Assembly (NCBI RefSeq): GCF_037201975.1
Contig: NZ_CP147520.1
Coordinates: 3,596,001-3,660,000, forward strand
Length of the DNA stretch: 64,000 nucleotides
Origin: Streptomyces sp. TG1A-60
GTDB taxonomy: Bacteria; Actinomycetota; Actinomycetes; Streptomycetales; Streptomycetaceae
Direction of reading: 5' to 3'
Of this stretch, positions 39,655 to 60,349 are shown in pieces. Position 1 is the first letter of the stretch; each line of letters begins with the position of its first letter. The position numbers and the translations under genes were made by a program. The notes beneath the pieces were generated by a model. The model saw only the letters and a list, made by a program, of their open reading frames with translations, was not told the origin of the DNA and made no database searches.

Positions 39655-39727
39655 CCAGTAACGCCGCTGGCCGGACGGGCCGATTCCTGCCATAACGCGA
39701 GTGCCCCCGGCGGGAGTTGGTAAGTGT

Positions 39728-40944: not shown

Positions 40945-41601
40945 ATGTCCATGAAGCCCCTCGAACACGACCGCCGGTACGGCGAGCTGGACCAGGTGAT
41001 GCGCGCGTACCTGGGACAACCGGCCGACGATACCCCGGAGCGGCGCAGCCGCGCGCTGAACGCATACCTCCGTCACACCTGGCAGACCCGCCCCTGGGCC
41101 ATCGCGGAGGCGGAGCGCCAGCTGCGCGAGTACAGCCGTAACCCGCCAGGTCGCATCCGGCACAGGCTGGGCGAGTTCTACGCGATCCCCAGCACCGGGA
41201 TGGCCGAGCCGGAGATCGGCGACTGGCTGATGATGCTGGCTGACCACCTCAAAAGGAGCGTCGAGGAAGGCGACGTCCCGGAACCGTCGTCCCCGCAGAC
41301 TCACTGGGAGTGGCACGCGCGCTTCCCCGAAGCCGCGCAGCTGCTTGGCGGCTGGTTCTCGCAGGACATCGTCGACGAGTTCCCCGACCACGACGCCGCC
41401 GTCGCCGACTACGCAGCCACCACCGAGCCCCAACTGGTCGCACGCCTTGTGGGCGAACTCCACGAGTTGCTCGCCCTCTCCATGGACGAGGGGGACTACG
41501 CCTTGGCAGCCGCCGAACTCGGCATGGAGGTCGGCCCGCCCGAGCCGTTCTCCTACGGCGCCTGGTTTCGGTCTGTGGCGGCGACGCTGGCCGACGGCTG
41601 A
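40945..41601 (+). CDS. CdiI-type immunity protein (contact-dependent inhibition), orphan
   Basis: A 218-residue protein resembling contact-dependent growth inhibition immunity proteins: LDQVMRAYLGQPADDTPERR, EFYAIPSTGMAEPEIGDWLM, WEWHARFPEAAQLLGGWFSQD and LLALSMDEGDYALAAAELGM. It follows the disrupted toxin tip by 14 bases, as an immunity gene should. With its own toxin broken, it could still protect the cell against related neighbours carrying the intact version. Two ATGs (40945, 40951) are possible starts. Confidence 0.72.
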   Translation: MSMKPLEHDRRYGELDQVMRAYLGQPADDTPERRSRALNAYLRHTWQTRPWAIAEAERQLREYSRNPPGRIRHRLGEFYAIPSTGMAEPEIGDWLMMLADHLKRSVEEGDVPEPSSPQTHWEWHARFPEAAQLLGGWFSQDIVDEFPDHDAAVADYAATTEPQLVARLVGELHELLALSMDEGDYALAAAELGMEVGPPEPFSYGAWFRSVAATLADG

Positions 41602-46624: not shown

Positions 46625-48084
46625 CGGTTCTCCTTGGTGAGAGCGGAGTTGAGGCGGCGCAGCTCGGCGGCCGCCTCCCGTACGCGGGCGGGCGAGGTGC
46701 CGCCGGGTGAGTCGCGGCGGGTGACGGCGTGCTCCACCGTCAGGACGTGCGGGGGGAGTTCGGCGAAGCGCGGGTCGAACTCGCCCAGCTCGACCGGCCG
46801 GGCGCCGTCGAGCTCCCGGCCCTGGACGGCGAGCCACTTGACGAGCCCGCCGACGACGCTGTGGGCCTCGCGGAAGGGCACTCCCCGGTCCGCGACCAGC
46901 CAGTCCGCGAGGTCGGTGGCCACCGTGTTGCCGAGCGCCGCGTCGGCCTTGGTCTTGTCGGTACGGAAGGTGATGCCGCGGAGCATCGCCGCGGCGGCGC
47001 GCACGCTGATCTCCAGGTGGTCAGCGGCGTCGAAGAGGGCTTCCTTGTCCTCCTGCATGTCGCGGCTGTAGGCGAGGGGAAGCCCCTTCATCACCGTCAG
47101 CAGGGACATCAGGTCGCCGAAGATCCGGCCGGACTTGGCCCGCATGAGTTCGGGAAGGTCGGGGTTGCGCTTCTGCGGCATGATCGACGAGCCGGCGCAG
47201 AGGTCCTCCGGCAGCGTGATGAACCCGAACTGAGGAGTGCTCCAGACGACGAGTTCCTCGCCGAGGCGGGAGATGTGGACCGCGAGGGTGGCGCCCGCCG
47301 ACAGGTAGTCGAGCATGAAGTCCCGGTCGGACACGGCGTCGATGGAGTTACGGGTGATGCCCGTGAACCCGAGGCTGCGGGCGCTCTCCCGGGGGTCGAT
47401 CGGGTAGCCGGTGCCGGCCAGGGCGGCCGCGCCGAGGGGGCTCTCGTCGAGGCGGCGCCGGGCGCACCGCAGGCGGTCCCGGTCGCGCAGGAACATCTCC
47501 CCGTAGGCGAGGAGGTGGTGCCCGATCGTCACGGGCTGCGCGCACTGGAGGTGGGTGAAGCCCGGCATGACGTCGGCGAGATGGGCCTCCGCCCGCTCCG
47601 AGACGACCTCGATGACCTCGGCGAGCAGGGCGTCGAGACGGTCGATGGCGTCCCTGACCCACATGCGGGCGTCGACGGCGACCTGGTCGTTGCGGGAGCG
47701 GGCCGTGTGCAGCCGGCCCGCCACCGGGCCGATGAGCTCGCGCAGCCGGGCCTCCACGTTCATGTGGACGTCCTCGAGCGCGGGGTCGAAGACGAACTCG
47801 CCCGCGTCGACCTCCCCGCGGATGCGTTCCAGCCCGTCCACGATCTCGGTGGCCTCCTCGGCGGAGAGCACCTTGCACGTGGCGAGCATGCGGGCATGGG
47901 CGATCGACCCGTCGATGTCCTGCTGCACGAGCCGGTGGTCGAAGCGGACGGAGGCGTTGATCTCCTCAAGGAGCGAACTGCCGCCGGTGAGCCAGCCCTT
48001 CCACATCCGGTCGTCGCCCGGCTGCTTCTTCTCGTTGCCCGGTTGGTTGTCCTCGTTGCCCGGTTGGTTGTCCGTGGTGCTCAT
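46621..48084 (-). CDS. argH: Argininosuccinate lyase
   Basis: A 487-residue fumarase-superfamily lyase giving arginine and fumarate. Signature GSSIMPQKRNPD, plus HTARSRNDQVAVDARMWVRD and GFTHLQCAQPVTIGHHLLAY. The first ~25 residues contain a hydrophilic repeat (DNQPGNEDNQPGNE) not seen in usual ArgH, coded by a short tandem DNA repeat. The start ATG overlaps the GNAT stop (ATGA); the stop overlaps the argG start in the same way. Confidence 0.96.
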   Translation of the reverse strand: MSTTDNQPGNEDNQPGNEKKQPGDDRMWKGWLTGGSSLLEEINASVRFDHRLVQQDIDGSIAHARMLATCKVLSAEEATEIVDGLERIRGEVDAGEFVFDPALEDVHMNVEARLRELIGPVAGRLHTARSRNDQVAVDARMWVRDAIDRLDALLAEVIEVVSERAEAHLADVMPGFTHLQCAQPVTIGHHLLAYGEMFLRDRDRLRCARRRLDESPLGAAALAGTGYPIDPRESARSLGFTGITRNSIDAVSDRDFMLDYLSAGATLAVHISRLGEELVVWSTPQFGFITLPEDLCAGSSIMPQKRNPDLPELMRAKSGRIFGDLMSLLTVMKGLPLAYSRDMQEDKEALFDAADHLEISVRAAAAMLRGITFRTDKTKADAALGNTVATDLADWLVADRGVPFREAHSVVGGLVKWLAVQGRELDGARPVELGEFDPRFAELPPHVLTVEHAVTRRDSPGGTSPARVREAAAELRRLNSALTKENR

Positions 48085-48764
48085 CGGGTGCCCTCCCCCA
48101 TCAGTACGGCCACCTGGAAGTCGAACGAAGCCTGGTAGGTGCGGCGCTTCCTGCGGATCTCGCGCAGCCGGTACAGGCTGGCGAGCCACTGCGCCTTGTA
48201 CAGGACGCCGAGGAACAGGCCCCGGCTGAGGGAGCCGCGCGTGAGGTCGGCCTCGCTGTCGTGGAGGTCGAAGCCCGAGCCGGCGGCGATGTGTCCCATC
48301 CTGGCCGAGGAGAAGAAGAGCAGGAGCTTGCGGCCGGACGTCCGTATCGCGCCGACGGCGTCTTCGAGCAGCAGGCGCCCCAGGCCGTGGCCGCGGTGCT
48401 CCTCGAAGACGTACACCACGGCTATCTCGCTCCAGCCGCCCAGGAGATGGTGGACGAGGAGCGCCCCCGCGACCCGGCCCGAGGCCGTGTCGCGGAGCAG
48501 GAAGGTGTCCCTCTTTCCCGTCCACTCCCGGAGGCTGTAGCCGGTGATGTGCGGCGAGGTCCTGATGCGCTCCATCACCTCGGCGGCCTCGGCGGCGGTG
48601 AGCGGCCTCCTCACCACCTCGAATCGGTCCCGGCTGTCCGATTCCTGCTCGACGACGGATGGCGATACGTGGGTGCCCAAGGGCCCCGTTGGCTTCGTGA
48701 GGGAGACTGCAGTACTGCGCCCGATCTTTACCGTGCCGTGTGCGGCAGAACGCGGGGACCTCAT
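48081..48764 (-). CDS. GNAT-family N-acetyltransferase
   Basis: About 227 residues. The acetyl-CoA binding region is VVYVFEEHRGHGLGRLLLED, preceded by a beta sheet GALLVHHLLGGWSEIA and followed by LLLFFSSARMGHIAAGSGFD. The first ~45 residues are poorly conserved in appearance. The chosen ATG has GGAG ten bases upstream; a TTG five codons earlier is possible. Translationally coupled to argH. Could acetylate a pathway intermediate or confer self-protection; GNAT genes accompany clavulanate clusters too, but the role is unproven. Confidence 0.82.
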   Translation of the reverse strand: MRSPRSAAHGTVKIGRSTAVSLTKPTGPLGTHVSPSVVEQESDSRDRFEVVRRPLTAAEAAEVMERIRTSPHITGYSLREWTGKRDTFLLRDTASGRVAGALLVHHLLGGWSEIAVVYVFEEHRGHGLGRLLLEDAVGAIRTSGRKLLLFFSSARMGHIAAGSGFDLHDSEADLTRGSLSRGLFLGVLYKAQWLASLYRLREIRRKRRTYQASFDFQVAVLMGEGTR

Positions 48765-48836: not shown

Positions 48837-49940
48837 TCAGTACACGCCCTCCACGCGCCGGCCCTCGGTGAACTCCGGGCTGAAGGGGTCGCCGATCCAA
48901 GCCCACGGGAAGAGTTCGGCGGCGGCGCCGTACGGCTGCACCCGGCGGGCCCGGTCGCGTTCGAGGAAGCCCGGCAGCAGCTGGTCGTGGGTGAGCCGCC
49001 AGACCCGCACCCGGCCCTCTTCGCCGAAGGCGACCGGGACGTTGTCCTCGCCCACAACGTCGATGCTCACCGAGGGCGAGCTGGGGATGTAGACGAGCTT
49101 GTGCTCGTCCTCCGGTTCGAACGGCTTCTGCCAGCTGATGCTGGTCGTCGACGAGCCGTACATGCCGAGGACCGGCACGCCCGGGAAGACGTCTTCGCGC
49201 AGCAGCTTGTGCGACTGCACGGGCAGCGTGGTTCCCGCGTGCACGACTCCCCGAACGTCCTTGAGGAGCCTGGCGTCCACGTACTCGGGCAGCATCTCAA
49301 GGAGCCTGGCGGTCCCGTAGATGACGCCGATGCGCTGCGACTGCAGGACGGCCGTCACCTGGTCCCAGATGTGCTGGACGTAGCGGTTGTACGCGTCGGT
49401 CATGCCCTCCTCGCCGAAGATCTTCACGATCCGCGGGTCGAGGTCGATCGAGAAGCACATGCCGCCCCGGCTCTCCGCCCAGTCGACCACGAGCCGACCG
49501 ATCGTGTGCGGGCCCATCGGCGAGATGTACAGCCAGTTGCAGTCCCGGGGAATGCCATGGGTGTCCATGGCGTAGTGGGAGAACTCGCTTACGTGCTTCC
49601 AGTACGCGCCGCCCCAGGTGGCGTGCTTGGGCAGGCCGGTCGTGCCGCCGGTCTGGGCCGCCCAGAGGAAGTCGGCGTCGCGCACCACATCGGCCGGGAT
49701 GAAGTCCTCGACGGGGCGACGGCGGCTCGCCTCCTCGTACGCCTCCTGGTCGGACTCGTCCCGGAACGCGAGGAGTTCCTGGGCGGACTCCCATCCGTCC
49801 ACCCGAGCGTAGGCGTCCGTGCCGAGCCTGCGGTCCCGCTCCAGCCAGAACGGCGACCCCGTCTCGGGGTGCAGATGGCGCCGCACGACCGCGCGCGCAT
49901 GTTCGTCGGACACCGCGTGCAGCGGCAATGAGTTCACCAT
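48837..49940 (-). CDS. EhpF-like adenylate-forming enzyme lacking the C-terminal domain
   Basis: A 367-residue phenylacetate-CoA-ligase-like protein. AQTGGTTGLPK is the phosphate loop, then YISPMGPHTIGRLVVDWAES and VLGMYGSSTTSISWQKPFEP. It ends after WIGDPFSPEF without the C-terminal lid domain of ordinary acyl-CoA ligases. This short form is typical of EhpF of griseoluteate biosynthesis, thought to activate a carboxylate for reduction by EhpG. The next gene upstream in the operon encodes an EhpG-like acyl reductase, supporting that pairing. Start ATG preceded by GGAGACG. Confidence 0.82.
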   Translation of the reverse strand: MVNSLPLHAVSDEHARAVVRRHLHPETGSPFWLERDRRLGTDAYARVDGWESAQELLAFRDESDQEAYEEASRRRPVEDFIPADVVRDADFLWAAQTGGTTGLPKHATWGGAYWKHVSEFSHYAMDTHGIPRDCNWLYISPMGPHTIGRLVVDWAESRGGMCFSIDLDPRIVKIFGEEGMTDAYNRYVQHIWDQVTAVLQSQRIGVIYGTARLLEMLPEYVDARLLKDVRGVVHAGTTLPVQSHKLLREDVFPGVPVLGMYGSSTTSISWQKPFEPEDEHKLVYIPSSPSVSIDVVGEDNVPVAFGEEGRVRVWRLTHDQLLPGFLERDRARRVQPYGAAAELFPWAWIGDPFSPEFTEGRRVEGVY

Positions 49941-49953
49941 GAACGTCTCCAGG

Positions 49954-51348
49954 TCAGTTGGGGAGTACGGGCTTCTTCTGGAAGAGGAAGTCGGCGAGGT
50001 AGCCCTCCTGCGGGTCGATCGGGTCGTAGCCCCGGTCGAACTGCTCGCCGTGGAACACCTTGGAAATGGACGGCTCGGCGACGAGCTGGTCGAGCAGTTC
50101 GTCGTCCTTGCCGGTGAGCGACACGATCAGTGACTGCCGGCAGGCGTGCGCCACCTCCTCGCGCGGCACCTCGGTCACCGTGACGAAGGGGAACGGGAGT
50201 TCCACCCGGACCAGCGGCGAGTCCGGCTGTACGCGCAGCACGGTGGGCCGCAGGAACCGGGTTCCGTCCAGTTCAACGCGCAGCGGCACGTCCGTGAGGC
50301 GGGCCGTGACGTCCTCGGCGCCCGCCGCGATCTCGCGTTCGACGAGCTTGGCGACGTAGGCCCAGTCGTCGGGGTCGGTGAACGCCGGGACGTTCGCGGC
50401 CGGGTCCGACAGCGGCAGCACCGGGAACTCCGCGAACTTCGCCGCGAGCCGCTCCGCCGCCTCCTGCGCCGACCACGGGACCGCGATGCTGCTGACGTTG
50501 GTGCACAGCCGGCCGCAGCCCTGGAACGCCAGACGCGCGAGCCGCGTCCACGCCTCGTCCCCGGGGTCCTCCGGCAGCACGGCCTTGCTGCGGCCGAAGT
50601 GGTACAGCTTCAGCCGGGTCGGGTCGAGGTCTGGCGGGTACTGCTCCCCCGGCCAGATGACCTGGTCGGCCAGGCGATGGAAGGTCTCGGCGCTGTCGTG
50701 GCAGACCGACACGGCGCCGTCGGGCAGTCCCGCCTCGTACAGCGCCTCCACGAAGATCGTCGCAACGAACGGGTCGTGCTTCGAGGTGCTGACCAGGGTC
50801 GGCCTGCGGCTGGAGAGGACCTGCAGCCACTCGATGGCGATGGTCGGGAAGTTGGCCGGCACCCTGACCATCGCGGTGCGCCCGGCGGGCAGCCACGACC
50901 ACCCGCGTCCGGTCTCGCCCGTGCGGTAGGGGACGGTGGTGCCGTCCGGCGACTGCACGGCCATGATCTTGTCCAGGTACTGCATCTGGTCGACGACGGC
51001 CAGGATTCCGCGGGTGGCCCGGCGCACCGGCAGCGCGCAGGCCGAGGCGAGCGCGGCCAGGATGTCGGTGAGCGCCCCGCTCTCGATCCGCTGCCGGACG
51101 ATGTCGGCGGCACGGCGGAAGAGCCCGAACCACTCGTCGTCGTCGATGGACTGCAAGGCCGGCACGGCTGCCTTGGCGCGGTTCACCATCCGTTGCTGCA
51201 CCAGGCGGCTCGCGTGGTCCACGGTGGCGACCAACTCACTCCGGCAGCCGCGCAGTTCGACAGGACGGTCGGACCAGGTGGGCTCGGCGCCCACCCAGGA
51301 GGGCACGGCGGGTACCCGCTCCGCGGCGGCGGTTGACGGCTGTGACAA
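49954..51348 (-). CDS. EhpG-like acyl reductase / aldehyde dehydrogenase superfamily protein
   Basis: About 464 residues of the LuxC/ALDH superfamily. It has GRTAMVRVPANFPTIAIEWL, VSTSKHDPFVATIFVEALY, LKLYHFGRSKAVLPEDPGD and the probable active-site cysteine in RLAFQGCGRLCTNVSSIAVP. Predicted to reduce the adenylate or thioester made by the EhpF-like enzyme to an aldehyde. TTG start with GGGAGAATC upstream; 13 bases separate it from the EhpF-like gene. Carboxylate reduction on a beta-lactam or peptide scaffold would be unusual, and the substrate is open. Confidence 0.78.
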   Translation of the reverse strand: MSQPSTAAAERVPAVPSWVGAEPTWSDRPVELRGCRSELVATVDHASRLVQQRMVNRAKAAVPALQSIDDDEWFGLFRRAADIVRQRIESGALTDILAALASACALPVRRATRGILAVVDQMQYLDKIMAVQSPDGTTVPYRTGETGRGWSWLPAGRTAMVRVPANFPTIAIEWLQVLSSRRPTLVSTSKHDPFVATIFVEALYEAGLPDGAVSVCHDSAETFHRLADQVIWPGEQYPPDLDPTRLKLYHFGRSKAVLPEDPGDEAWTRLARLAFQGCGRLCTNVSSIAVPWSAQEAAERLAAKFAEFPVLPLSDPAANVPAFTDPDDWAYVAKLVEREIAAGAEDVTARLTDVPLRVELDGTRFLRPTVLRVQPDSPLVRVELPFPFVTVTEVPREEVAHACRQSLIVSLTGKDDELLDQLVAEPSISKVFHGEQFDRGYDPIDPQEGYLADFLFQKKPVLPN

Positions 51349-51380
51349 GACGATTCTCCCTATCGGTGGCTGCACACGGG

Positions 51381-52082
51381 CTAGCGATGGCTGCGCACGG
51401 GGCCGGCCATCCGGCGCCAGGTTCCGGCGCCCCGTGGATCTGCGGTGAAGTCGTAGGTGAGCCTGTCGTGGCCGACGCGGACGAGCGCGGCCGAGGTCGT
51501 GGCATAGGACCGGCCCGATTCGAGCCGGTCGACGAGCAGGGCCTCCTCGGCGGCCGGGAAGGGTTCGGGGCCTTCGAGCAGGGTCCGCCACACGTCGTCG
51601 GTCAGGCCAGGCAGTTGTGGCAGGAAGCGACGGACCCGCGCATGCCCCAGATCGTCGAGTCCGCCGTACGTCAGCATGTGGTCGCCCGGGTGCACGTCCT
51701 GCGCGCGCAGCCGGCGCCCGTCCCAACTGATCACCCGCGTCCGGCCGGGTTCGGCGTGCAGCAGATGGAAGCCCGGCAGATCGGTGACGTCGTGCCGGGT
51801 CGGCGCCCCGTCCGTGAGCATCCGCAGCGGCAGCACACCGCGGCTGCCGGGCTGCTCGGGCACCTCCCCCGGGCCGTTCACCAGGACCGCGACCGCCGGG
51901 CGGTCGGTCCGTACGGCGAGCCAGGTGCCGCCGGACACGAGGTCAAGGCCGCCGACGAGGTGCCGTTCGGGCCAGTGCCTGCCCGGCGCGGACCAAGGGC
52001 GATCCGTGAATTCGTCCCGAACGGCCGCCATCAGAACGCCCAACTCCGGGCGCGCGTGAACGCGAAGAAATACGGTGCACAT
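51381..52082 (-). CDS. NRDE/TANGO2 family protein
   Basis: A 233-residue protein of the NRDE family. It starts MCTVFLRVHARPELGVLMAA, placing a Cys at position 2 that becomes N-terminal after Met removal, as in Ntn-type hydrolases. Further marks are the DEFTDRPWSAP turn, GGLDLVSGGTWLAVRTDRPA and VLVNGPGEV. The biochemical function of this family is poorly defined. As the first gene of the leftward operon, divergent from the OAT gene, it belongs to the island; a peptidase or amidase-like role is possible but speculative. Confidence 0.78.
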   Translation of the reverse strand: MCTVFLRVHARPELGVLMAAVRDEFTDRPWSAPGRHWPERHLVGGLDLVSGGTWLAVRTDRPAVAVLVNGPGEVPEQPGSRGVLPLRMLTDGAPTRHDVTDLPGFHLLHAEPGRTRVISWDGRRLRAQDVHPGDHMLTYGGLDDLGHARVRRFLPQLPGLTDDVWRTLLEGPEPFPAAEEALLVDRLESGRSYATTSAALVRVGHDRLTYDFTADPRGAGTWRRMAGPVRSHR

Positions 52083-52371
52083 CACTTCCCCCGTTGACCG
52101 GCACACCATCCCTCTGGGGCGCGAGCTTACATATTTATACAGTCCTTGCCCAGTGGCCCTAGGGCGGTCCGGCACACATCACACGACTGATGTGCCGTCA
52201 ATTACCATGCCAATCTGGGATTTTTCTACCCTTTTCCGCGCCAGAGCTCCATCAGCAGACCAGGCAAAGTCTAGGTATCGTCATGTGGAGGCATGTATAC
52301 TCTGTGAGTACGCAGGGTGCATACTCGGCGAGTACAAGGTGCTCGACGCGTCGACTGAAAGGGGTGATGAC
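52083..52371. promoter_or_regulatory. Divergent promoter region between the two operons of the second island
   Basis: 289 bases without a gene, clearly richer in AT than the surroundings (for example CTTACATATTTATACAGTCC near 52128). It must hold the promoters for both the leftward NRDE-to-MFS operon and the rightward OAT-to-CarC operon. The palindromic pair below is in its right half. Confidence 0.6.
52298..52334. promoter_or_regulatory. Two tandem 13-bp operators TACTC-N3-GAGTA upstream of argJ
   Basis: TACTCTGTGAGTA (52298-52310) and TACTCGGCGAGTA (52322-52334) are perfect 5+5 inverted repeats 24 bp apart centre to centre, lying 38-74 bases upstream of the argJ ATG on one DNA face spacing. 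The paired layout suggests cooperative binding by a dimeric regulator, perhaps of the GntR type. No regulator gene is visible in the island, so control may come from elsewhere. Confidence 0.6.
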
Positions 52372-53526
52372 ATGTCATCGCTGAGTCCACGTGGTTTCCG
52401 CAGCCGGACAGCGGCACTCGGGATCAAGGACGCTGCGGACGATTTCACCGTCGTCCTGTCGGAGGTTCCCGCCGCGGTGTCGGCGGTGTTCACGCGGTCC
52501 AGATTCGTCGGGCCCAGCGTGACGCTGAGCCGCGAGTCGACGGCGGCGGGCGAGGCCCGCGGCGTCGTGGTCATCGCCCGCAACGCCAACGTCGCCACCG
52601 GCGCCGAGGGCATGGCGAACGCCAAGGAGGTCCGGGCGACCGTCGCCGAGGCCGCCGGGCTCTCGCCGGAAGAGCTGCTGATCGCGTCCACGGGCGTCAT
52701 CGGGCGCCAGTACCCGATGGACCGGGTCCGCAGCGGACTCTCCGAACTCCAGTGGCCCCTGCCGGAAGCGGACCTGCCGGCGGCCGCCAAGGCGATCATG
52801 ACCACGGACACCGTCGCCAAGCACGTGGCGCTGCCGTGCGGTGACGCGACCATCGGCGCCATCGCCAAGGGCGTCGGCATGATCGAGCCAAACATGGCGA
52901 CACTGCTGGTGTTCTTCTTCACCGACGCCCAGCTGGACCAGCCGGCCCTTGACCGCGTGTTCCGCCGGGTCGTCGACCGGACCTTCAACGCGCTGAGCAT
53001 CGACACCGACACCTCCACGAGCGACAGCGCCGCGATCTTCGCCAACGGCCTGGCGGGCCCGGTCGACGAGGCCGAGTTCGAGTCCGTTCTGTACAAGGCC
53101 GCGCTGCAGCTCGTACGCAAGATCGCGTCCGACGGCGAGGGCGCCAGCAAGCTGATCGAGGTGCGGGTGGTCGGCGCCCGCGACGACGCGCAGGCCAAAC
53201 AGGTCGGCAAGACCGTGGTCAACTCCCCGCTGGTGAAGACCGCCGTGCACGGCGCCGACCCCAACTGGGGCCGCGTCGCGATGGCGATCGGCAAGTGCGA
53301 GGACGACCTGGACATCGACCCGTCGCACGTGGTGATCCGCTTCGGGGAGACCGAGACCTACCCGGCGCCCGTGACCGACGAGGTCCTGGCCGCCGCCACC
53401 TCGCACCTGAAGGGCGACGAGGTCGTGATCACCATCGACCTCGGCATCGCGGCGGGCGAGTTCACCGTCTACGGCTGCGACCTCACCGACGGATACATCA
53501 GGATCAACGCCGACTACACGACCTGA
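52372..53526 (+). CDS. argJ: Ornithine acetyltransferase / ArgJ family, resembling clavulanate-cluster OAT2
   Basis: A 384-residue Ntn-fold enzyme that transfers acetyl from N-acetylornithine to glutamate, releasing ornithine. The self-cleavage site is in AKGVGMIEPNMATLLVFFFT, with Thr as nucleophile. Other marks are ASTGVIGRQYPMDRV, RTFNALSIDTDTSTSDSAAI and VHGADPNWGRVAMAIGKCED. From memory these segments look closer to OAT2 of the clavulanic acid cluster than to housekeeping ArgJ, which needs a tree to confirm. ATG start with AAAGGGG upstream. First gene of the rightward operon. Confidence 0.92.
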   Translation: MSSLSPRGFRSRTAALGIKDAADDFTVVLSEVPAAVSAVFTRSRFVGPSVTLSRESTAAGEARGVVVIARNANVATGAEGMANAKEVRATVAEAAGLSPEELLIASTGVIGRQYPMDRVRSGLSELQWPLPEADLPAAAKAIMTTDTVAKHVALPCGDATIGAIAKGVGMIEPNMATLLVFFFTDAQLDQPALDRVFRRVVDRTFNALSIDTDTSTSDSAAIFANGLAGPVDEAEFESVLYKAALQLVRKIASDGEGASKLIEVRVVGARDDAQAKQVGKTVVNSPLVKTAVHGADPNWGRVAMAIGKCEDDLDIDPSHVVIRFGETETYPAPVTDEVLAAATSHLKGDEVVITIDLGIAAGEFTVYGCDLTDGYIRINADYTT

Positions 53527-53567
53527 CGTTTCCCGACGGGAGAGGGACGCCAGGCGTCAGGGGGATC

Positions 53568-54671
53568 ATGCAGAGCGGCGACAACGCGCTCCTGTCGTGG
53601 GAGCGCACCCCGGACATACCCGTGGACGACTGGGACCGCCTGGCGGGCCCGGACGATCTCTTCCTGTCCCACCGCTGGTTGAGGGTGGTGGAGGAGACCG
53701 CCCGGACCCCCATGCGGTACCTGAGCCTCAAGCGCGCAGGCGAGCCGGTCGCCGCGCTGGCCACGGCACTCGCGACGGCGGACGTGCCGTGGGTGGCCGG
53801 AAGGGTGGACCACCTTCTCGACCACTGCGTCACAGAGGGCTTCGACGGCGCGGCGGACTTCGCCCGCGGCCTGGACGGCGGTGCCGGCGCCCTGCTGCCC
53901 ACCGTCCACTGCGGCGGCCGGCACGTCGGCCGCACCCGCCTGCTGCACACCGCCGGGCCGCGGCAGGCCCCGCGTGACGACGTGGAACTCCTCGTCGTGG
54001 AGGCGGAGAAGCTGGCCGCTGACACCGACTCCGCGTCGGTGTCCTTCCCGTACGTCGACGAGCGGGACACCACACTCACCGCGGTGCTGCGGGACCGGGG
54101 CTACTCCTCCTTCACCTCCGGCAACTACCACTGGCTGCCGGTCGACCCCGCCGGCTTTCCCGCCTACGCGGCGGCGCTGCCGCGCAAGCGCCGGCTCAGC
54201 GTGCTCAGCGAACGCGCCAAGGTCCGCGCGGCGGGCCTCGACATCACCCACGAGGCGGTCACACCGGAACTCAGCGGCAGGCTCGCCGAGTTGGAGGTGC
54301 AGCTCCTCGCCAAGTACGGCCTCGACTGGCCTGCCGAGCGGTCCGCCGCGGCCATCGCCACCGCCGCCGCCCGGTTCGAGGACGACGCCTCGGTGCTGCT
54401 CGGCCGGGCGGACGGCGACCTCCGCGGCTTCGCCCTGATGCTCCGCCGCGGCGACCAGTGGTACGCCCGCCAGTGCGGCTTCGACTACGGCTACCTCGGC
54501 AAGGTGCCGCTCTACTACGAACTCCTCTACTACTTCGCCGTGGAGCGCGCCGCCGAGCTGGGCGTCGCGACGATCCAGTACGGCATCGGCAGCGACACCG
54601 CGAAGCGCTCCCGCGGCTGCTCATCGACCCGGTTGAACTGCCACGTCCTGCCGTTGGGACAGCCCGGATGA
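53568..54671 (+). CDS. FemAB/GNAT-like acyl- or aminoacyl-transferase (peptidogalycan-biosynthesis family)
   Basis: A 367-residue protein with a double GNAT-like fold pattern: WDRLAGPDDLFLSHRWLRVV near the N-terminus, ASVSFPYVDERDTTLTAVLR in the middle, LPRKRRLSVLSERAKVRAAG, and a C-terminal GFALMLRRGDQWYARQCGFD then GKVPLYYELLYYFAVERA. Related FemAB-like proteins use aminoacyl-tRNA to add residues to an amine. Here the neighbour is an ATP-grasp ligase, translationally coupled by ATGA, suggesting that amino acids are appended to a core molecule. ATG start with AGGGGGA upstream. Confidence 0.68.
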   Translation: MQSGDNALLSWERTPDIPVDDWDRLAGPDDLFLSHRWLRVVEETARTPMRYLSLKRAGEPVAALATALATADVPWVAGRVDHLLDHCVTEGFDGAADFARGLDGGAGALLPTVHCGGRHVGRTRLLHTAGPRQAPRDDVELLVVEAEKLAADTDSASVSFPYVDERDTTLTAVLRDRGYSSFTSGNYHWLPVDPAGFPAYAAALPRKRRLSVLSERAKVRAAGLDITHEAVTPELSGRLAELEVQLLAKYGLDWPAERSAAAIATAAARFEDDASVLLGRADGDLRGFALMLRRGDQWYARQCGFDYGYLGKVPLYYELLYYFAVERAAELGVATIQYGIGSDTAKRSRGCSSTRLNCHVLPLGQPG

Positions 54672-55912
54672 GCCCGCAGGACACCTTCGTCGTGGTGGAG
54701 ACCCAGCTCTCGCGCTTCGGACTGAGCCCCTTCGTCGCGGCGCGGGCCCTGGGCTTCCGTACCGTCTTCGTCGCCAGGGACCTTGGTCGCTACGCCGGGG
54801 CGACCGGGCCCGCCGACCTGGCCGACCACGTGGTTCAGGCCGACACCCATGACGCGGCGGCCCTCGTCGCCGCCGTCCGGTCCGCCGCGGGCACCGCCAC
54901 CGTGCGCGGCATGTGCACCTTCACCGACTACAGCGTCCACGTGGTCGCCGAGGCAGCCAGAAAGCTCGGGCTGCCCGGCCTCTCACCGGAAGCGGCCCAC
55001 CGGGCGCGCAACAAGCTGGAGACCCGCAGGGCGTGCACCAACGCCGGGGTGCCCGGGCCGCGCTTCGCCTGGACGGTCACCGAACAGGCCGCGGTCACCG
55101 CCGCCGACGACATCGGCTACCCCTGCGTGGTCAAGCCCGCCACCGAGGCGGGCAGCATCGGCGTACGGCTGTGCCGCAGCGCGGACGACGTACGAGCACA
55201 CTTCCGCGCGCTGACGGCGCACGAGCGGGACTTCCGCGGCCAGGCCAAGCCCGTCGGAGCCCTGATCGAGGAGTACCTGATCGGCTACGAGCTGAGCGTG
55301 GAGTCCGTGCTCACGGGCGGGCGGCGCCGCACCATCGGCGTGGTCGACAAGGTCCTCGGGGGCCATCCGCACTTCGTCGAACTCGGGGAGAGCTTCCCGT
55401 CGATGCTCCCCGAAGCGGTGACCCGCGCGGCCTCCGAGACCGCGCACGCCGCGCTCGACGCCATCGGGCACGAATTCGGCGCGGCGCACGTCGAGCTGAA
55501 GGTGACCGCCACCGGCGTGAAGCTGGTGGAGATCAACGCACGTCCCGCCGGCGCGGAGATCACCCGGCTGATCCTCGAGGCCACCGGCACCGACCTGCCG
55601 CTCCAGGTCGTTAGGCTGCACGCGGGCCTGCCCGCCGACCTCGCCCCGCTGCGCAACAAGGCGGCGGCCTCGCGCTATGTCACGGCCGGCGCGACGGGCA
55701 CCCTGCACGCCGTGCACGGCACCGAGCTGGCCCGCCGGGTCGCCGACCGTATCGACGTGGACCTAGAGGCCGAAGCAGGGGACGAAGTCCGCTCCCCCAC
55801 CAGCAACATGGACGTCATCGGCCGGATCGTCGCGGTCGGCGACAGCGCCGCCGAGGCGGTGCGCCTGGCCGACGCCGCGCTCGGTCAGCTGCAGATCGAG
55901 GTGCGCCCGTGA
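54668..55912 (+). CDS. ATP-grasp ligase (carboxylate-amine ligase)
   Basis: A 414-residue ATP-grasp enzyme. It has RNKLETRRACTNAGVPGPRF, YPCVVKPATEAGSIGVRL (ATP-binding lysine), GALIEEYLIGYELSVESVLT, FGAAHVELKVTATGVKLVEI and NARPAGAEITRL (metal-binding Glu-Asn). Such enzymes form amide bonds between an acyl phosphate and an amine, as in dipeptide ligases and the N-glycyl-clavaminate ligase of the clavulanate pathway. Start and stop are both overlapped with neighbours (ATGA and GTGA), so stoichiometric expression is likely. Substrates unknown. Confidence 0.9.
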   Translation: MSPQDTFVVVETQLSRFGLSPFVAARALGFRTVFVARDLGRYAGATGPADLADHVVQADTHDAAALVAAVRSAAGTATVRGMCTFTDYSVHVVAEAARKLGLPGLSPEAAHRARNKLETRRACTNAGVPGPRFAWTVTEQAAVTAADDIGYPCVVKPATEAGSIGVRLCRSADDVRAHFRALTAHERDFRGQAKPVGALIEEYLIGYELSVESVLTGGRRRTIGVVDKVLGGHPHFVELGESFPSMLPEAVTRAASETAHAALDAIGHEFGAAHVELKVTATGVKLVEINARPAGAEITRLILEATGTDLPLQVVRLHAGLPADLAPLRNKAAASRYVTAGATGTLHAVHGTELARRVADRIDVDLEAEAGDEVRSPTSNMDVIGRIVAVGDSAAEAVRLADAALGQLQIEVRP

Positions 55913-57138
55913 CCACGACGGACACCGCACCGCGCACGGGCCTGCGCGCGGTCCTTCCGCACGGCCGCGGGGTCGTCACGTTCGGACTGTCCAACCTGGT
56001 CAGCGCGTTGGGCACCGGCGTGTTCTACCCGTACACGCTGCTGTTCTTCCCCGCCCTGCTCGGCATCTCGCTCACGCAGGTCGGCACGGTCCTGAGCGTC
56101 ACCGCCCTCGTCGCGCTGCCGGGGATGTTCTGGGTCGGGCGGCTCATCGACCGGCTCGGCCCGCGGACGGTGCTGATCGCGGCGGCGCTGCTGCGTGCCG
56201 CCGGGTTCATCGGCTACGTATCCATCCGCCACGTCGCGGCCTTCGCCCTGTTCAGCGTCCTCATCGCGCTGTGCAACCGGGCCGAGCAGGCAGCCTCGCC
56301 CGCCCTCGCCGTCGCCCTCGCGCCGGACGGCGAGCGCAACCGGTGGCTCGCGCTCACCCGCACCGCCTTCAACGCCGGTATCGGCGGCGGCGCCCTCCTG
56401 GGCAGCGCTCTGATCGTCGGCGGCGAGACGGCCCTGATGTGGCTCGGCCTTGCCAACGCGGCCGGCTTCCTCGTCGCCGGGCTCGTCCTGTGGCCGCTGC
56501 GGCCGCCGACGGTGCCGCCCGCCGATCGCGCGAAGCTCAGCCGCGGGCCGTGGCGCGACGGGGCGTTCCTCGTCGTCGTCGGGTTCAACTCCCTGCTGTG
56601 GCTGGTCGCGTTGGCGGTGGAGACCAGCATGTCCGCCTACCTGGTCGGCACGCTCGGCGCGCCCGCCTGGCTGGCGGGCACGCTGTTCGCCGTAAACACC
56701 GGCCTCCTCATGGTCTTCCAACTGCCGCTCGCCTCGCTCCTGGATCGCTGGGGGAACCTCACGGTGCTCCTCGCGGGGACGCTGCTCACCGCGGTCTTCC
56801 TCGTGGCCATGGCGCTGGGCGGCGCGCTCGGCGGCACCGCCCTCATCGTCCTGCTGCTCGTCGGCATGGTGATCTACACCGCGGGTGAACTGGCGGTCGC
56901 GCACGCGCGCTACGCCCTGCTCACCGATCTGCCGCCACCCTCCGAACTCGGCTCGTTCCTGGCGTTCAACCAGGTCGCCGTCGGGATCTCCGGTGCGCTG
57001 GTGCCGTTCGTCGTGGCCGCGTTGCTCGACTCGGCGCCCGCCGGGCTGTGGTGGCTCATGGCCGCACTCACCGTGGTGACCACGGTGGGGGTGCTGGCTG
57101 CGCGCCCGCTGCTGCTTGCGCGCGGCCAGAAACAATAA
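55909..57138 (+). CDS. MFS transporter
   Basis: A 409-residue major facilitator with 12 predicted helices. The A-motif is FWVGRLIDRLGPRTVLIAAA, and another loop reads SLLDRWGNLTVLLAGTLLTA. GTG start coupled to the ATP-grasp gene by GTGA. A second MFS gene closes the opposite operon. Product export and hence self-protection is the natural guess because no beta-lactamase or penicillin-binding protein gene is visible in the island. The 135 bases to the crotonase gene contain no ORF. Confidence 0.9.
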   Translation: MTTTDTAPRTGLRAVLPHGRGVVTFGLSNLVSALGTGVFYPYTLLFFPALLGISLTQVGTVLSVTALVALPGMFWVGRLIDRLGPRTVLIAAALLRAAGFIGYVSIRHVAAFALFSVLIALCNRAEQAASPALAVALAPDGERNRWLALTRTAFNAGIGGGALLGSALIVGGETALMWLGLANAAGFLVAGLVLWPLRPPTVPPADRAKLSRGPWRDGAFLVVVGFNSLLWLVALAVETSMSAYLVGTLGAPAWLAGTLFAVNTGLLMVFQLPLASLLDRWGNLTVLLAGTLLTAVFLVAMALGGALGGTALIVLLLVGMVIYTAGELAVAHARYALLTDLPPPSELGSFLAFNQVAVGISGALVPFVVAALLDSAPAGLWWLMAALTVVTTVGVLAARPLLLARGQKQ

Positions 57139-57273
57139 ATGACCGTCCGAACCCGCGGCTCGTTCCCGCCTTTCGGCGCATAGATTCCAGAATTTCCGCT
57201 CACCCACAGGCGCTTTTGGTTCAGGCTGCCGTGATTCCGCCAGCAATCGAGCACACCCCTGGAGGCAGATTTC

Positions 57274-58068
57274 ATGAGTGACCGCTACGACACCTTCGAC
57301 TTCGGCGTCGCCGTGACGGACGGCGTCGCCCTGGTCGAGTTCGACGACACACATCGGCACAACCCGTGGTCGATGCCACGCATGGACGGGCTCACCCGGC
57401 TGCTCAAGGAGTTCTCCCAGGACGAACAGGTCCGCTCGGTCGTGCTGTTCAGCGGAGTCGGCCGGTCGTTCGGTGTCGGTGGCAGCTTCCACGAAACGGC
57501 GAAGTTCACCGGCGGCGAGGAGGTCGACGCATGGATAGACCAGGTCACCGACCTCTACGTCGCGGCCCTCCAGCTCGACCGGCCGCTGATCGCGGCGATC
57601 GACGGCTATGCCATCGGAATCGGCCTGCAGATAGCACTCTGCGCGGACTACCGGATCGGCAGCAGCCGCTGTGTCCTCAAGATGCCCGAATTCGAGCTCG
57701 GTATCGCGTGTACCTTCGGCGGTTTCATGCTGGAAACCGTCGCCAGCCGGGCCGTGGCACAGAAGATGCTGATGACGTGCGACGAATGGGACGCGCTGCA
57801 GTCGGAGCAGGACAACCTCCTGCACGAGGTCGTTCCGGCGGAGGCCCTGCGGGACGCGGCACTGCGCCGCGCCCGACAGGCCGCCGCGTTCACCCCGGCC
57901 GGCTTCCGTAAGACAAAGCCCTATCTCAACTCGAATTACATCGAAGGCCTTGAGCGGACCAGGGTGGCCGGAAAGCTGGCCCACCGGGCGGCGTTCGCCG
58001 CCGGCGAGGCGCAGCAGAAGATGAACCGCGTCATCGGCACGAACGCCCCGGCCGGAGCGGTCCGATGA
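57274..58068 (+). CDS. CarB-like crotonase (putative carboxymethylproline synthase)
   Basis: A 264-residue enoyl-CoA hydratase/isomerase-fold protein. Oxyanion-hole elements are SGVGRSFGVGGSFHE (about 60-74) and IDGYAIGIGLQIALCADY (109-126). The acidic residue region is KMPEFELGIACTFGGFMLET. In carbapenem biosynthesis CarB condenses malonyl-CoA with pyrroline-5-carboxylate to give carboxymethylproline. Assignment to that class rests on its size, on the absence of fatty-acid oxidation neighbours and on the directly coupled CarA-like gene. ATG preceded by GGAGGC. Other crotonase chemistries remain possible. Confidence 0.72.
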   Translation: MSDRYDTFDFGVAVTDGVALVEFDDTHRHNPWSMPRMDGLTRLLKEFSQDEQVRSVVLFSGVGRSFGVGGSFHETAKFTGGEEVDAWIDQVTDLYVAALQLDRPLIAAIDGYAIGIGLQIALCADYRIGSSRCVLKMPEFELGIACTFGGFMLETVASRAVAQKMLMTCDEWDALQSEQDNLLHEVVPAEALRDAALRRARQAAAFTPAGFRKTKPYLNSNYIEGLERTRVAGKLAHRAAFAAGEAQQKMNRVIGTNAPAGAVR

Positions 58069-59453
58069 CCGGCGCGCCGTGGCTGGTCGTCTCGAACTGG
58101 CAGATACCCGGCTTCGACGAGGTCCTCTCCCCCACCGTCCTGGGCGAGGTGCGGGCGTACGCCTCAGGGCGCGCCCCCGTCACCGAGGGTTCCGGGATGA
58201 CCTTCGCCGTCGAAGCGGCGGGCACGTCCCTGAACGTCGCGGCGGACCGGGTCCGGGTGACGACGTCGGCGTCCAACACCACCCCGGTGTACTTCGCGGA
58301 GGACGCAGCGACCGGACGGTTCATCGTCGGCACCGACCTGCCGACGACCGCCGCCGCCTACGCCTCGCTGACCGGGACGCCCGCGGCGCTGCGGGACGAG
58401 ATCGGCGTACAGGAAGGGCCCCTGTCCGCCGTCGTCGGCGTCGAACGCCTGGAGCACCTCGTCGAACTGGAACTGCGCCGGGAGTCCGGGGCATGGCAGT
58501 GCACGCGCACCCGGCAGGCCGAACTCCCGGAACCCCCCGTCAAGTTCCGCGAGGCGCTCCTCGCCGGCCAGGCGCAGGTTCAGGCGCTGCGCGACGCCAT
58601 CGCCGAGGCCCTGTCCACCGCGCCGGACGTCGGTGTCCTGGTGTCCGGCGGCGTCGACTCCGGGCTCGTGGCGGCACTGGTCGCGGAGACCGGCGCACCC
58701 ACCACCGCCTACACCATCGGCACCGAGTGGGGCGACGAGTTCGACCACGCCGCCGAGGCGGCGCAGGCGGTGGGGCTCGACCTACGCGCGACCACGCTCG
58801 GGGCGGACGACGTCGTCGAGGCACTGCCGGCCACCGTGCGCGCGTTCGGCCACGGTGAGCCGCAGACGATCGCGATCGGCGTCGCCCTCGCTGCGTTCTG
58901 CCGGGGCGGGTACGCGGTGGAGCGGCTGCTGCTCACCGGCTACGGCTCGGACCTGCTGAACTCGGGGATGGCGACGACCGACGAGATCGGCGGGGACATC
59001 GGGGCCAAGGTCAGGGAGGCGGTGCACCGCACCCGCTACTCCTCGGAGTTCACCGCGGCGCTCGGCGACCAGGGCGGGCACCGGCTCACGCACCCGTACT
59101 GGCACGCCGGCGTCCTGGAGACCGCGCTTGCGACCGACCCGGCCGTGAAGACGTACCGCGGCAGGGAGAAGGGGCATCTGCGGTTCGCGGCCCGGGAGTT
59201 GCTGCCCGAGGACGTGGCCTGGCGCCCGAAGACGGCGATCCACCACGGCAACGGCCTCGGCGCCAATCTCGACCGGCTGGTCGACCAGCACACCGGCACG
59301 CCCGGCGGTACGGGCCTGGTCTACCGCGCCCTGCTCGCGTCGCAGATCGCCACCGCGTCTCAGAACCCCCTGGCCCTCATGACAGGCCGTGAGGCCTACG
59401 ACCGCGCGGTCGCCCAGGTGGCCCGCGCTTCCTCCCAGCACATCACCCAGTGA
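58065..59453 (+). CDS. CarA/BLS-like beta-lactam synthetase (asparagine synthetase family)
   Basis: A 462-residue asparagine-synthetase-B-type protein. The N-terminus (TGAPWLVVSNWQ) lacks the Cys2 nucleophile, so it cannot hydrolyse glutamine. The PP-loop is VLVSGGVDSG (191-200). The motif TGYGSD has Tyr293 where asparagine synthetases have Glu (GEGSD), the diagnostic swap of beta-lactam synthetase and carbapenam synthetase. Glu328 in YSSEF is the candidate dyad partner. Lys389 in WRPKTAIHHGNG matches the adenylate-stabilising lysine. Predicted reaction: ATP-driven closure of a beta-amino acid to a beta-lactam. ATGA overlap with the crotonase gene. Confidence 0.87.
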   Translation: MTGAPWLVVSNWQIPGFDEVLSPTVLGEVRAYASGRAPVTEGSGMTFAVEAAGTSLNVAADRVRVTTSASNTTPVYFAEDAATGRFIVGTDLPTTAAAYASLTGTPAALRDEIGVQEGPLSAVVGVERLEHLVELELRRESGAWQCTRTRQAELPEPPVKFREALLAGQAQVQALRDAIAEALSTAPDVGVLVSGGVDSGLVAALVAETGAPTTAYTIGTEWGDEFDHAAEAAQAVGLDLRATTLGADDVVEALPATVRAFGHGEPQTIAIGVALAAFCRGGYAVERLLLTGYGSDLLNSGMATTDEIGGDIGAKVREAVHRTRYSSEFTAALGDQGGHRLTHPYWHAGVLETALATDPAVKTYRGREKGHLRFAARELLPEDVAWRPKTAIHHGNGLGANLDRLVDQHTGTPGGTGLVYRALLASQIATASQNPLALMTGREAYDRAVAQVARASSQHITQ

Positions 59454-59473
59454 AAAGTGAAAGGCGAAACACG

Positions 59474-60349
59474 ATGACACAGTCCGGTTATGCGGCACTC
59501 ACACCGTCCGGCTTCGGGGCCCTGTGGAACGAGGGCACCCAGGCCGACCCCGGGACCGTGCGGGAACTCGCGCTGGAGTCCGGCGTCGCGGTCGTCAAGG
59601 ACCAGAAGTTCACCAAGGAGGAGTTCCGCGCGTTCGTCTCGGGCCTCGGCGACAAGGTGTCGTACGACGACGATGACGACAGCGTCGGCTACGGCTTCAC
59701 GGACATCCTGCACCTGGACGGGACGCGCGAGGAAGGCAAGGTCATCACCGGCCGCGGCGGCCTCCCTCTGCACACCGACGGGGTGCTGCTCGGCACGCAG
59801 GTCGACCTGATCGTTCTGTACGCCGCCGAGGCGCGCGTGCAGCAGGACGGCGCGACCCTGGTGTGCGACCAGATCACGGCGTGGAAGGAACTCCCCGACC
59901 ACCTGCGGGAGGTGCTCGACCGCGGCCACCTGGAGTACATGGCGACCGAGCGCGGCTACTTCACGAACGTCCCCGAGGGCTGGTACCGCATTCCCACGTT
60001 CCGTGACTACGGCCGGGTGACCTCGCTCAACCTCGCTCTGCCATTCCAGGCCGACGAGGCCCTTGCCAGCTGGAACGTCCGCGTGCCGGACGTGTCCGCG
60101 GAGGAGTCGGAGCGGTTCTTCGCCGACCTGCGCGCGCACCTCCTGTCGGACCGCTACCTGCACGAACACCGCTGGTCCGAGGGCGATCTCGTGGTCATCG
60201 ACAACCAGCGCACCCTGCACGGCAGGCGCGGCCTCGCCGACTCCGCGAGCCGCAAGCTGCTGCGCGGCCAGGTGACGCTGGCCAAGGTGGAGGGCGCGCC
60301 CGGAGCCATCTCCAGCGGGAGCGCCGTACAGGAGACGCCGGCGCGGTAG
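59474..60349 (+). CDS. CarC-like Fe(II)/2-oxoglutarate oxygenase (TauD family)
   Basis: A 291-residue double-stranded beta-helix oxygenase. Iron ligands are His100 and Asp102 in LPLHTDGVLL and His249 in NQRTLHGRRG; the 2-oxoglutarate-binding Arg follows in SASRKLLRGQV. Size and ligand positions agree closely with CarC (carbapenem synthase), which epimerises and desaturates carbapenam carboxylate. Third gene of the CarB-CarA-CarC-like set, 20 bases after the CarA-like stop, start preceded by GAAAGGCG. TauD-family enzymes also do hydroxylation, so the exact reaction is open. Confidence 0.85.
   Translation: MTQSGYAALTPSGFGALWNEGTQADPGTVRELALESGVAVVKDQKFTKEEFRAFVSGLGDKVSYDDDDDSVGYGFTDILHLDGTREEGKVITGRGGLPLHTDGVLLGTQVDLIVLYAAEARVQQDGATLVCDQITAWKELPDHLREVLDRGHLEYMATERGYFTNVPEGWYRIPTFRDYGRVTSLNLALPFQADEALASWNVRVPDVSAEESERFFADLRAHLLSDRYLHEHRWSEGDLVVIDNQRTLHGRRGLADSASRKLLRGQVTLAKVEGAPGAISSGSAVQETPAR

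Follow-up and report, generated by a model that had tools for sequence, protein, structure and literature searches.

Streptomyces sp. TG1A-60 (NZ_CP147520.1) carries a gene cluster that spans approximately 44.2 to 60.3 kb of the window, the term used here for the whole 64,000-nt stretch of DNA analyzed. The cluster is composed of 14 frames:

44233..45429, minus strand: MFS transporter 1 (Pfam MFS_1)
45431..46624, minus strand: ArgG-like argininosuccinate synthase (Pfam)
46621..48084, minus strand: ArgH-like argininosuccinate lyase (TIGR00838, 549 bits)
48081..48764, minus strand: GNAT acetyltransferase (Pfam; 4-base overlap with the ArgH gene)
48837..49940, minus strand: EhpF-like adenylate-forming enzyme of the thienamycin-locus type (EhpF 3l2k, 114 bits)
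49954..51351 (start approximate), minus strand: EhpG-like aldehyde dehydrogenase/reductase (Pfam Aldedh)
51381..52082, minus strand: NRDE/TANGO2 protein (Pfam TANGO2)
52372..53526, plus strand: OAT2-type ornithine acetyltransferase (OAT2 1vz6, 535 bits; tree)
53568..54671, plus strand: FemAB-like protein (Pfam FemAB_like)
54668..55912, plus strand: ATP-grasp ligase with an L-amino acid ligase C-terminal domain (Pfam LAL_C2 and ATP-grasp_4; 4-base overlap with the FemAB gene)
55909..57138, plus strand: MFS transporter 2 (Pfam; 4-base overlap with the ATP-grasp gene)
57274..58068, plus strand: CarB/ThnE-like putative carboxymethylproline synthase (5o34, 302 bits)
58065..59453, plus strand: CarA/beta-lactam-synthetase-like protein (4-base overlap with the CarB-like gene)
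59474..60349, plus strand: CarC-like Fe(II)/2-oxoglutarate oxygenase (or from a GTG start at 59450; Phe163 aligned with CarC Tyr165)

An earlier note on this DNA had described a CarB-CarA-CarC-like trio, with the first two genes translationally coupled, among OAT2-, ATP-grasp-, FemAB-, EhpF-, EhpG-, ArgG-, and ArgH-like genes. The trio, the coupling (an ATGA overlap), and all of these neighbors were found, the latter by matches to Pfam, TIGR00838, and PDB sequences. The NRDE/TANGO2 gene was missing from its gene list. Elsewhere in the genome, there is a second, more distant ArgG (two ArgG places in all) and another full ArgH at 6.80 Mb. Transposase genes lie left of the cluster, at distances of approximately 4 and 10 kb, and one relative (G243) looks decayed, which would fit an island that is silent or a remnant, its genes having ceased to work together. 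This reading is hardly credible given the open frames, 12 of 14 being picked up by a third-position G+C screen, the 4-base overlaps, and the 69–93% identity of 13 of the 14 proteins (GNAT, 54%) in strain B-S-A8.

Enzymes of the CarB/ThnE kind make carboxymethylproline from malonyl-CoA and P5C. The CarB-like crotonase matches 5o34 best and then CarB 2a7k (170 bits). Over the 243 residues compared, the identity between 5o34 and the thienamycin-locus crotonase of S. cattleya (pSCAT) is 100%, and 5o34 is therefore taken as ThnE; the record of this locus is without gene annotation, and the names ThnE and ThnM were assigned in this analysis. The TG1A-60 protein keeps the residues at CarB G62, W79, Q111, E131, and H229, with Ile at the M108 position, and is set apart in the tree from three crotonases of its own genome, used as the outgroup, with a support of 100/99. 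These active-site residues and the grouping away from enoyl-CoA hydratases support its prediction as a bicyclic beta-lactam-type crotonase and not a beta-oxidation enzyme.

CarA-family synthetases use ATP, a Tyr-Glu dyad, and a Lys to close the beta-lactam, giving (3S,5S)-carbapenam. The top solved matches of the CarA-like protein are CarA 1q15 (2.2e-24) and beta-lactam synthetase (BLS) 1jgt (1.6e-22), with human asparagine synthetase behind them (1.4e-5). As the earlier note had pointed out, its N-terminus (MTGAPW) is devoid of the Cys2 nucleophile, and the GYGSD motif is present. The equivalents of CarA Y345, E380, and K443, which make up the dyad and the Lys, are kept in TG1A-60 and in 36 of 41 alignment rows in all, including ThnM, Pantoea CarA, and two BLS. 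The AF2 model (pLDDT 92.6) has an asparagine-synthetase-like fold, and its comparison with PDB folds places beta-lactam and carbapenam synthetase chains at ranks 1–13 and asparagine synthetases after them, with a modest lead in TM-score (0.73–0.76 vs. 0.68 for E. coli AsnB). The CarA tree, a check that had been suggested, has long branches and weak inner support. Sequence, tree, and model together support a putative bicyclic beta-lactam-type enzyme, not a glutamine-dependent amide synthetase.

The same fold and dyad might also serve to make another amide, with a product that is not a beta-lactam: the ring could be a larger lactam, or the bond could join two molecules, one of them an amine (arginine, for example). 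The recurrence of the arginine genes ArgG and ArgH would suit such a product, as would the arginine gamma-hydroxylase family gene that adjoins CarB in two Pseudomonas clusters (L098 and L009), where TG1A-60 differs, and the presence, in most relatives read, of enzymes that activate carboxylates or form amides (ATP-grasp, AMP ligase, or NRPS). It is nevertheless unlikely, as the window and its close relatives retain the dyad found in known beta-lactam formers, the top fold matches are BLS and CarA, and the CarA-like gene is coupled to a CarB/ThnE-type crotonase. Changed dyads do occur in CarA-type sequences of similar loci (L/Q in R. fascians, M/L in Acinetobacter, V/E in S. decoyicus, and V in P0046), and beta-lactams may therefore not be the product of every family member.

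The third protein of the trio has CarC 1nx4 as its top match (3.3e-56). Its metal triad, H100, D102, and H249, sits close to the positions in CarC (H101, D103, and H251), as had been claimed, and R260 corresponds to the 2-oxoglutarate-binding Arg263. F163 stands at the place of CarC Tyr165, a position with Phe in 29 of 31 alignment rows, window included; only the Pantoea and S. decoyicus rows have Tyr. Tyr165 has been proposed to donate the hydrogen when C5 is inverted. The Y165F variant of CarC oxidizes its substrate catalytically (PMC6097109). The CarC tree has long branches and weak inner support, with the canonical Pantoea CarC beside the window group at 41/44. Because the CarC-like protein has Phe at this position, the product may stay 5S; we infer that it would be a carbapenam-type beta-lactam oxidized without the Tyr165-dependent inversion and possibly aminoacylated. 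The trio is not simply the minimal carbapenem set that it had been taken for, its oxygenase being without Tyr165, and the cluster allows the Tyr165 model for carbapenem ring inversion to be tested in a natural system.

The EhpF-like and EhpG-like proteins are 64% and 56% identical to the products of 14260–15360 and 12860–14209 of the S. cattleya locus, a pair located before ThnM, and we take them to be ThnN and ThnO, respectively. In TG1A-60, the pair lies approximately 8 kb from the synthetase on the opposite strand, not directly before it as in the thienamycin/olivanic arrangement. An EhpF-type gene was found in six of the 382 Streptomyces genomes searched, and the other five all show EhpG-EhpF-ThnM. 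The ArgJ of the cluster is OAT2-type, with 136 bits for the best ArgJ chain vs. the score for 1vz6 given above, and groups in the OAT2 clade with the clavam-cluster proteins, apart from housekeeping ArgJ (100/99 branch, 21 rows). Such genes are present in 55 of the 382 genomes and are thus not beta-lactam-specific: among 20 loci fetched, four have CeaS/BLS/PAH/CAS, one an OppA-like gene, and one OppA-like, FemAB, and ATP-grasp genes, while the query genes gave no match in 14. The FemAB-like protein is 41–45% identical to a gene product paired with ATP-grasp in four of five clavam-type clusters, whose ATP-grasp proteins are 31–33% identical to that of TG1A-60. The NRDE/TANGO2 protein has an Ntn-hydrolase-like fold and Cys2 (MCT...); its model (pLDDT 92) matches TANGO2 and then isopenicillin N acyltransferase, and the gene also occurs in the Streptomyces, Pseudomonas, and Glaciimonas clusters.

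To our knowledge, few bicyclic beta-lactam pathways are known. The TG1A-60 genes probably constitute a biosynthetic cluster for a bicyclic beta-lactam of the carbapenam type, and a penicillin-like compound is the probable product because carbapenem-type ring-making enzymes are joined with clavulanic-acid-type and arginine-linked helper genes. Of the candidate new bicyclic beta-lactam pathway proposed earlier, the enzyme type stands, with beta-lactam formation as a prediction, and the gene combination was not found described in the open-licence literature. The view of the setting as unfamiliar is not supported, since the EhpF/EhpG pair is of the type before ThnM, OAT2 and FemAB/ATP-grasp recur in clavam-type clusters, and arginine genes accompany CarB-, CarA-, CarC-like, and OAT2-type genes in the att locus of Rhodococcus fascians.

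In the proposed pathway, the EhpF/EhpG-like pair would form a semialdehyde by adenylating and reducing a carboxylate, for which glutamate or N-acetylglutamate is the simplest source, and OAT2, ArgG, and ArgH may provide glutamate/ornithine/arginine supply or acetyl recycling. The CarB-like protein, going by its active-site residues, would act as the carboxymethylproline synthase. The CarA-like protein, going by the residues and fold tested, would close the beta-lactam with ATP, the dyad, and Lys to (3S,5S)-carbapenam, and the CarC-like protein would oxidize the bicycle with C5 possibly unchanged. Attachment of at least one amino acid may fall to the ATP-grasp and FemAB-like proteins and acyl-group chemistry to the NRDE and GNAT proteins, while export would be the task of the two MFS pumps.

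The cluster is rare and conserved. A search for the gene set elsewhere, also proposed earlier, identified it in other Streptomyces, and a five-gene core, CarB-CarA-CarC-NRDE-OAT2, is common to Streptomyces, Pseudomonas, and Glaciimonas. MFS transporter 1, ArgG, ArgH, and GNAT also occur together in two further loci (L006 and L017); ArgG/ArgH gave no match within 30 kb of the S. zagrosensis cluster. EhpF/EhpG gave no match in the Pseudomonas and Glaciimonas clusters, so the reduction step would not be general. A tentative extension is a new product class common to the three genera: a 5S carbapenam/carbapenem made via a natural Phe165 CarC-type oxygenase, aminoacylated by ATP-grasp/FemAB (elsewhere by AMP ligases or NRPSs), and acting as an antimetabolite or signal not aimed at penicillin-binding proteins, with att making a non-beta-lactam derivative.

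Compared with the thienamycin locus, the CarB-like protein is 56% identical to ThnE and the CarA-like protein 34% to ThnM over 233 aa. TG1A-60 differs in having OAT2, NRDE, FemAB, ATP-grasp, ArgG, and ArgH and a CarC homologue, a close form of which thienamycin lacks (PMC6097109). Simple carbapenem carABCDE (Pantoea sp. At-9b; 1q15, 2a7k, and 1nx4) shares the CarA, CarB, and CarC kinds, metal ligands, and synthetase dyad, at 27–39% identity. If the cluster were an ordinary one, of the thienamycin/olivanic or simple carbapenem type, this would account for the ThnE-, ThnM-, EhpF-, and EhpG-type genes or for the CarC-like gene; it is very improbable in view of the Phe at Tyr165 and of the genes that gave no match in 43–61 kb. 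These are 13 of 17 thienamycin-locus ORFs tested, including a metallo-beta-lactamase-fold ORF and three with B12-binding domains (two of them also radical SAM) that mark the thienamycin side chain, and, as noted earlier, CarD proline dehydrogenase and CarE ferredoxin of the carA–E set (Pantoea queries).

The att locus (pFiD188) runs ArgH, ArgG, CarB-, CarA-, CarC-like, AMP ligase, and OAT2-type ArgJ genes together, also with Phe at Tyr165, and six of its ten proteins match the TG1A-60 cluster. The att locus has been described as encoding an autoregulatory compound (PMC12130866), one that had not been identified in 2014 (PMC4092121). A signaling or antimetabolite compound of this kind, in place of a carbapenem-kind antibiotic, is quite unlikely for TG1A-60: the att dyad is Leu/Gln vs. 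Tyr/Glu, the common proteins are 33–56% identical, the att formyltransferase, LysE, LysR, and AMP ligase of the ten-gene set gave no match in the TG1A-60 cluster, and its EhpF, EhpG, NRDE, FemAB, and ATP-grasp gave none in 18.6 kb around att. The att product gains from TG1A-60 a chemical frame open to testing in a host that is harmless.

Among the L063 proteins of the clavulanic-acid-type clusters, only BLS and OAT2 (66%) match; CeaS, PAH, and CAS, which mark a clavam cluster, gave no match in 43–61 kb, and the start is CarB-type instead of CeaS. The Pseudomonas/Glaciimonas run, CarB-CarA-CarC-NRDE-GNAT-AMP ligase-OAT2, differs in its AMP ligase and resembles TG1A-60 in CarB (66–67%), CarA (39–43%), CarC (55–60%), OAT2 (64–68%), and NRDE (35%). 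The TG1A-60 cluster unites, in one streptomycete, a start of the thienamycin type with a CarC-type oxygenase and with tailoring genes of the clavulanate type.

The 7.83-Mb host genome, which groups with Streptomyces-like genomes in a genus-level search, is a single contig, of which the window covers positions 3,596,001-3,660,000. Gene content, residues, fold, conservation and relationships of the cluster are reported here as observed. Two gene groups lie on opposite strands between 44.2 and 60.3 kb of the window, with the following features in and near them:

33266-34267 and 39701-40561, transposase genes near the CdiA-CT/CdiI_2 pair
36434-38242 and 40729-41601, CdiA-CT RNase A domain protein and CdiI_2 immunity domain protein, likely a toxin-immunity pair
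44.2-60.3 kb, minus-strand group: MFS1, ArgG, ArgH, GNAT, EhpF-like adenylating enzyme, EhpG-like aldehyde dehydrogenase, NRDE/TANGO2 protein
44.2-60.3 kb, plus-strand group: OAT2-type ArgJ, FemAB-like protein, ATP-grasp ligase, MFS2 and the trio of CarB-like crotonase, CarA-like synthetase and CarC-like oxygenase

Four-base overlaps occur in FemAB/ATP-grasp, ATP-grasp/MFS2 and CarB/CarA, while 20 bases separate CarA from CarC unless CarC begins at a GTG, in which case the two genes overlap. The next frame downstream of CarC is a TAP-like alpha/beta hydrolase, and the cluster end was therefore set before that gene.

The earlier note had taken the CarA-like protein for an enzyme that closes beta-lactam rings, an assignment with which sequence, fold and tree agree. 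Its top structure matches are CarA (1q15, 89.5 bits) and beta-lactam synthetase (1jgt, 83.3 bits), ahead of every asparagine synthetase; likewise, for its AlphaFold2 model (pLDDT 92.6), ranks 1-13 among PDB folds are beta-lactam or carbapenam synthetase chains with the asparagine synthetases below, at a modest TM-score margin over E. coli AsnB. On these two rankings a true asparagine synthetase was rejected. The homologue search gave 56 matches, 49 with E < 1e-30, of which 31 plus the window protein form one alignment; the tree and residue count used 41 rows (25 homologues, the window, six loci, seven references and two asparagine synthetases). In the tree, the window protein and its kin are separate from the two asparagine synthetases (SH-aLRT 88, long branches). 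Equivalents of CarA Tyr345, Glu380 and Lys443 are present in 36 of the 41 rows; the full set is missing from R. fascians, Acinetobacter, S. decoyicus and the two asparagine synthetases, whose rows are probably misaligned and were left out of the argument. A homologue outside the 41 rows (P0046) has Val at the Tyr position of the dyad.

The crotonase retains CarB Gly62, Trp79, Gln111, Glu131 and His229, while the Met108 position is Ile in the window and Val in ThnE (the names ThnE and ThnM at the S. cattleya thienamycin locus were assigned in this analysis). Its best structure match, 5o34, is taken to be ThnE, since it is 100% identical to the thienamycin-locus crotonase over the 243 residues compared. 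The tree of 18 rows, which also served for the residues, splits the CarB kind, window crotonase included, from three further crotonases of the host genome at 100/99, bearing out the CarB-like assignment of the earlier note; on this position and the retained active-site residues a beta-oxidation crotonase was rejected.

The oxygenase has the metal triad of CarC intact, along with counterparts of Arg263 and Arg267. At the position of CarC Tyr165 it has Phe, as do all 34 rows of its alignment (33 of 69 matches plus the window) and 29 of the 31 rows of the reference-containing set used for the tree and residues, with Tyr only in Pantoea carA-E and S. decoyicus. According to a review, Tyr165 was proposed as the hydrogen donor for C5 inversion, and the Y165F variant still carries out catalytic substrate oxidation (PMC6097109). 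The simplest inference from the residue is that the Phe165 branch would oxidise the bicycle without Tyr165-dependent inversion; a different donor or a different enzyme could invert C5. The Pantoea enzyme is not split from the window group in the CarC tree (long branch, support 41/44) and is told apart from it by residue 165, not by the tree. In P0109, a CarC-like oxygenase is joined in one protein with a carrier-protein domain (PF00550), an arrangement that suggests a carrier-bound substrate in some relatives.

The EhpF- and EhpG-like proteins are 64% and 56% identical to the gene pair directly upstream of ThnM in the thienamycin locus, so that the unfamiliar setting described in the earlier note is not supported for this pair. 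The names ThnN and ThnO for the two proteins, together with Orf16 and GcaS, are presumed. With at most five candidates scored per genome, the window-type EhpF was found in six of 382 Streptomyces genomes, and the other five all show the order EhpG-EhpF-ThnM; the pair is thus a marker of carbapenem-type clusters in Streptomyces.

The window ArgJ belongs to the OAT2 type, scoring 535 bits against clavulanate OAT2 and 136 bits against the best ArgJ chain. A 100/99 branch places the cluster copies and one clavam-cluster OAT2 on one side and the housekeeping copies, 33-36% identical to the window OAT2, on the other. The OAT2 type is common (55 of 382 Streptomyces genomes, at most five candidates scored in each), and five of the 55 are CarC genomes, where it lies by the trio (G000, G033, G243, G322) or in the clavam cluster (G052). 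Among 20 of the remaining loci, CeaS/BLS/PAH/CAS are present in four, an OppA-like gene in one, and an OppA-like gene together with FemAB and ATP-grasp in another, and the other 14 have no query gene nearby; with these counts, the OAT2-type ArgJ was dropped as a beta-lactam marker. Copies 86-87% identical to that of the window also lie away from query genes in L119 (G154) and L120 (G031), the former beside a phosphopantetheinyl transferase, a condensation-domain protein and an MFS gene. The FemAB/ATP-grasp pair was found in four of five clavam-type clusters with one additional 20-kb flank read per cluster, and ORF17 of clavam clusters is an ATP-dependent N-glycyl-clavaminic acid synthetase according to a title cited in PMC7830376. 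Cys2 of the NRDE protein is nearly invariant among 30 homologues, and its structure model matches TANGO2 best, followed by isopenicillin N acyltransferase, which fits a putative acyl-handling role.

The CarC family is rare: with at most six candidates scored per genome, it is present in six of 392 Streptomyces genomes (own included), in the own genome alone among 394 of the class, and in two of 398 Pseudomonas genomes (the central genome included). The gene set, which the earlier note had put forward as a candidate new pathway, recurs whole in strain B-S-A8 and for the most part in S. zagrosensis, except for MFS1, ArgG, ArgH and GNAT, which had no match in an additional 20 kb on each side of the locus. 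The CarA-like and NRDE genes of Actinokineospora baliensis carry locus tags that differ by six. In Pseudomonas (L008, L098) and Glaciimonas (L010), CarB-CarA-CarC-NRDE-GNAT-AMP ligase-OAT2 form a single run. CarB adjoins a member of the GntB (guanitoxin arginine gamma-hydroxylase) family in L009 and L098 (492 and 514 bits; cut-off 380), and in these two Pseudomonas strains GntB-family and amino-acid transporter genes are divergent from CarB (L098 13549-15517, L009 393-2298).

CarC-like genes also lie in other Streptomyces loci. In L017 (8232-19330) and L018 (9643-18892), two NRPS proteins and a PLP ornithine/DAP/arginine-decarboxylase-like protein accompany a CarB/A/C-type trio, whose CarBs cluster with ThnE at 93/98. 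Genome G052 has three beta-lactam-type clusters: CarA/B/C with NRPS (L017, 2.42 Mb), a clavam-type cluster (L063, 7.48 Mb) and an EhpG-EhpF-ThnM cluster (L140, 7.76 Mb). An S. decoyicus plasmid (L079, 8070-12512) carries CarC-like (Tyr165 kept), CarA-like (GVGAD) and CarB-like genes, then AMP ligase and NRPS genes. The trio relative in L020 (6627-10485, G243), absent from all trees, has partial and broken CarB and CarA matches and looks decayed. A CarC-like gene in L019 (9387-10433, G372) has no CarA, CarB or ArgJ match within 20 kb, and that genome has a single ArgJ overall.

All reactions and the product of the cluster we infer. The product is probably a beta-lactam; the full picture of a 5S, aminoacylated product is a tentative and rather unlikely one. 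Such a bicyclic beta-lactam pathway would open with thienamycin-type steps, proceed by CarC-type oxidation without Tyr165 and use clavulanate-type tailoring genes, with the arginine-linked genes serving in supply or decoration. A simple carbapenem or thienamycin cluster was rejected, as genes of both had no match in 43-61 kb. A literature search, light on subscription journals, found no paper on this gene set.

A related run is the att locus of R. fascians pFiD188, which comprises ArgH, ArgG, a formyltransferase, CarB-, CarA- and CarC-like proteins, an AMP ligase and ArgJ. The att metabolite was without identification as of 2014 (PMC4092121), the att advantage is possibly unrelated to virulence (2020; PMC7261884), and att is said in 2025 to encode an autoregulatory compound (PMC12130866). 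An att-like order, ArgH-ArgG-formyltransferase-EamA-crotonase, is also present in L062 (735-19324, G033), where molybdenum-hydroxylase, cucumopine-synthase-like and carbamoyltransferase genes come next; it was set aside for its molybdenum-hydroxylase and carbamoyltransferase genes and a crotonase with His at CarB Glu131. Six of the ten att proteins match the window cluster at 33-56% identity. Where the window protein keeps the Tyr-Glu dyad, Leu and Gln stand in the CarA-like protein of att, and Met and Leu in that of the Acinetobacter plasmid; ring closure may therefore have been lost or altered in both.
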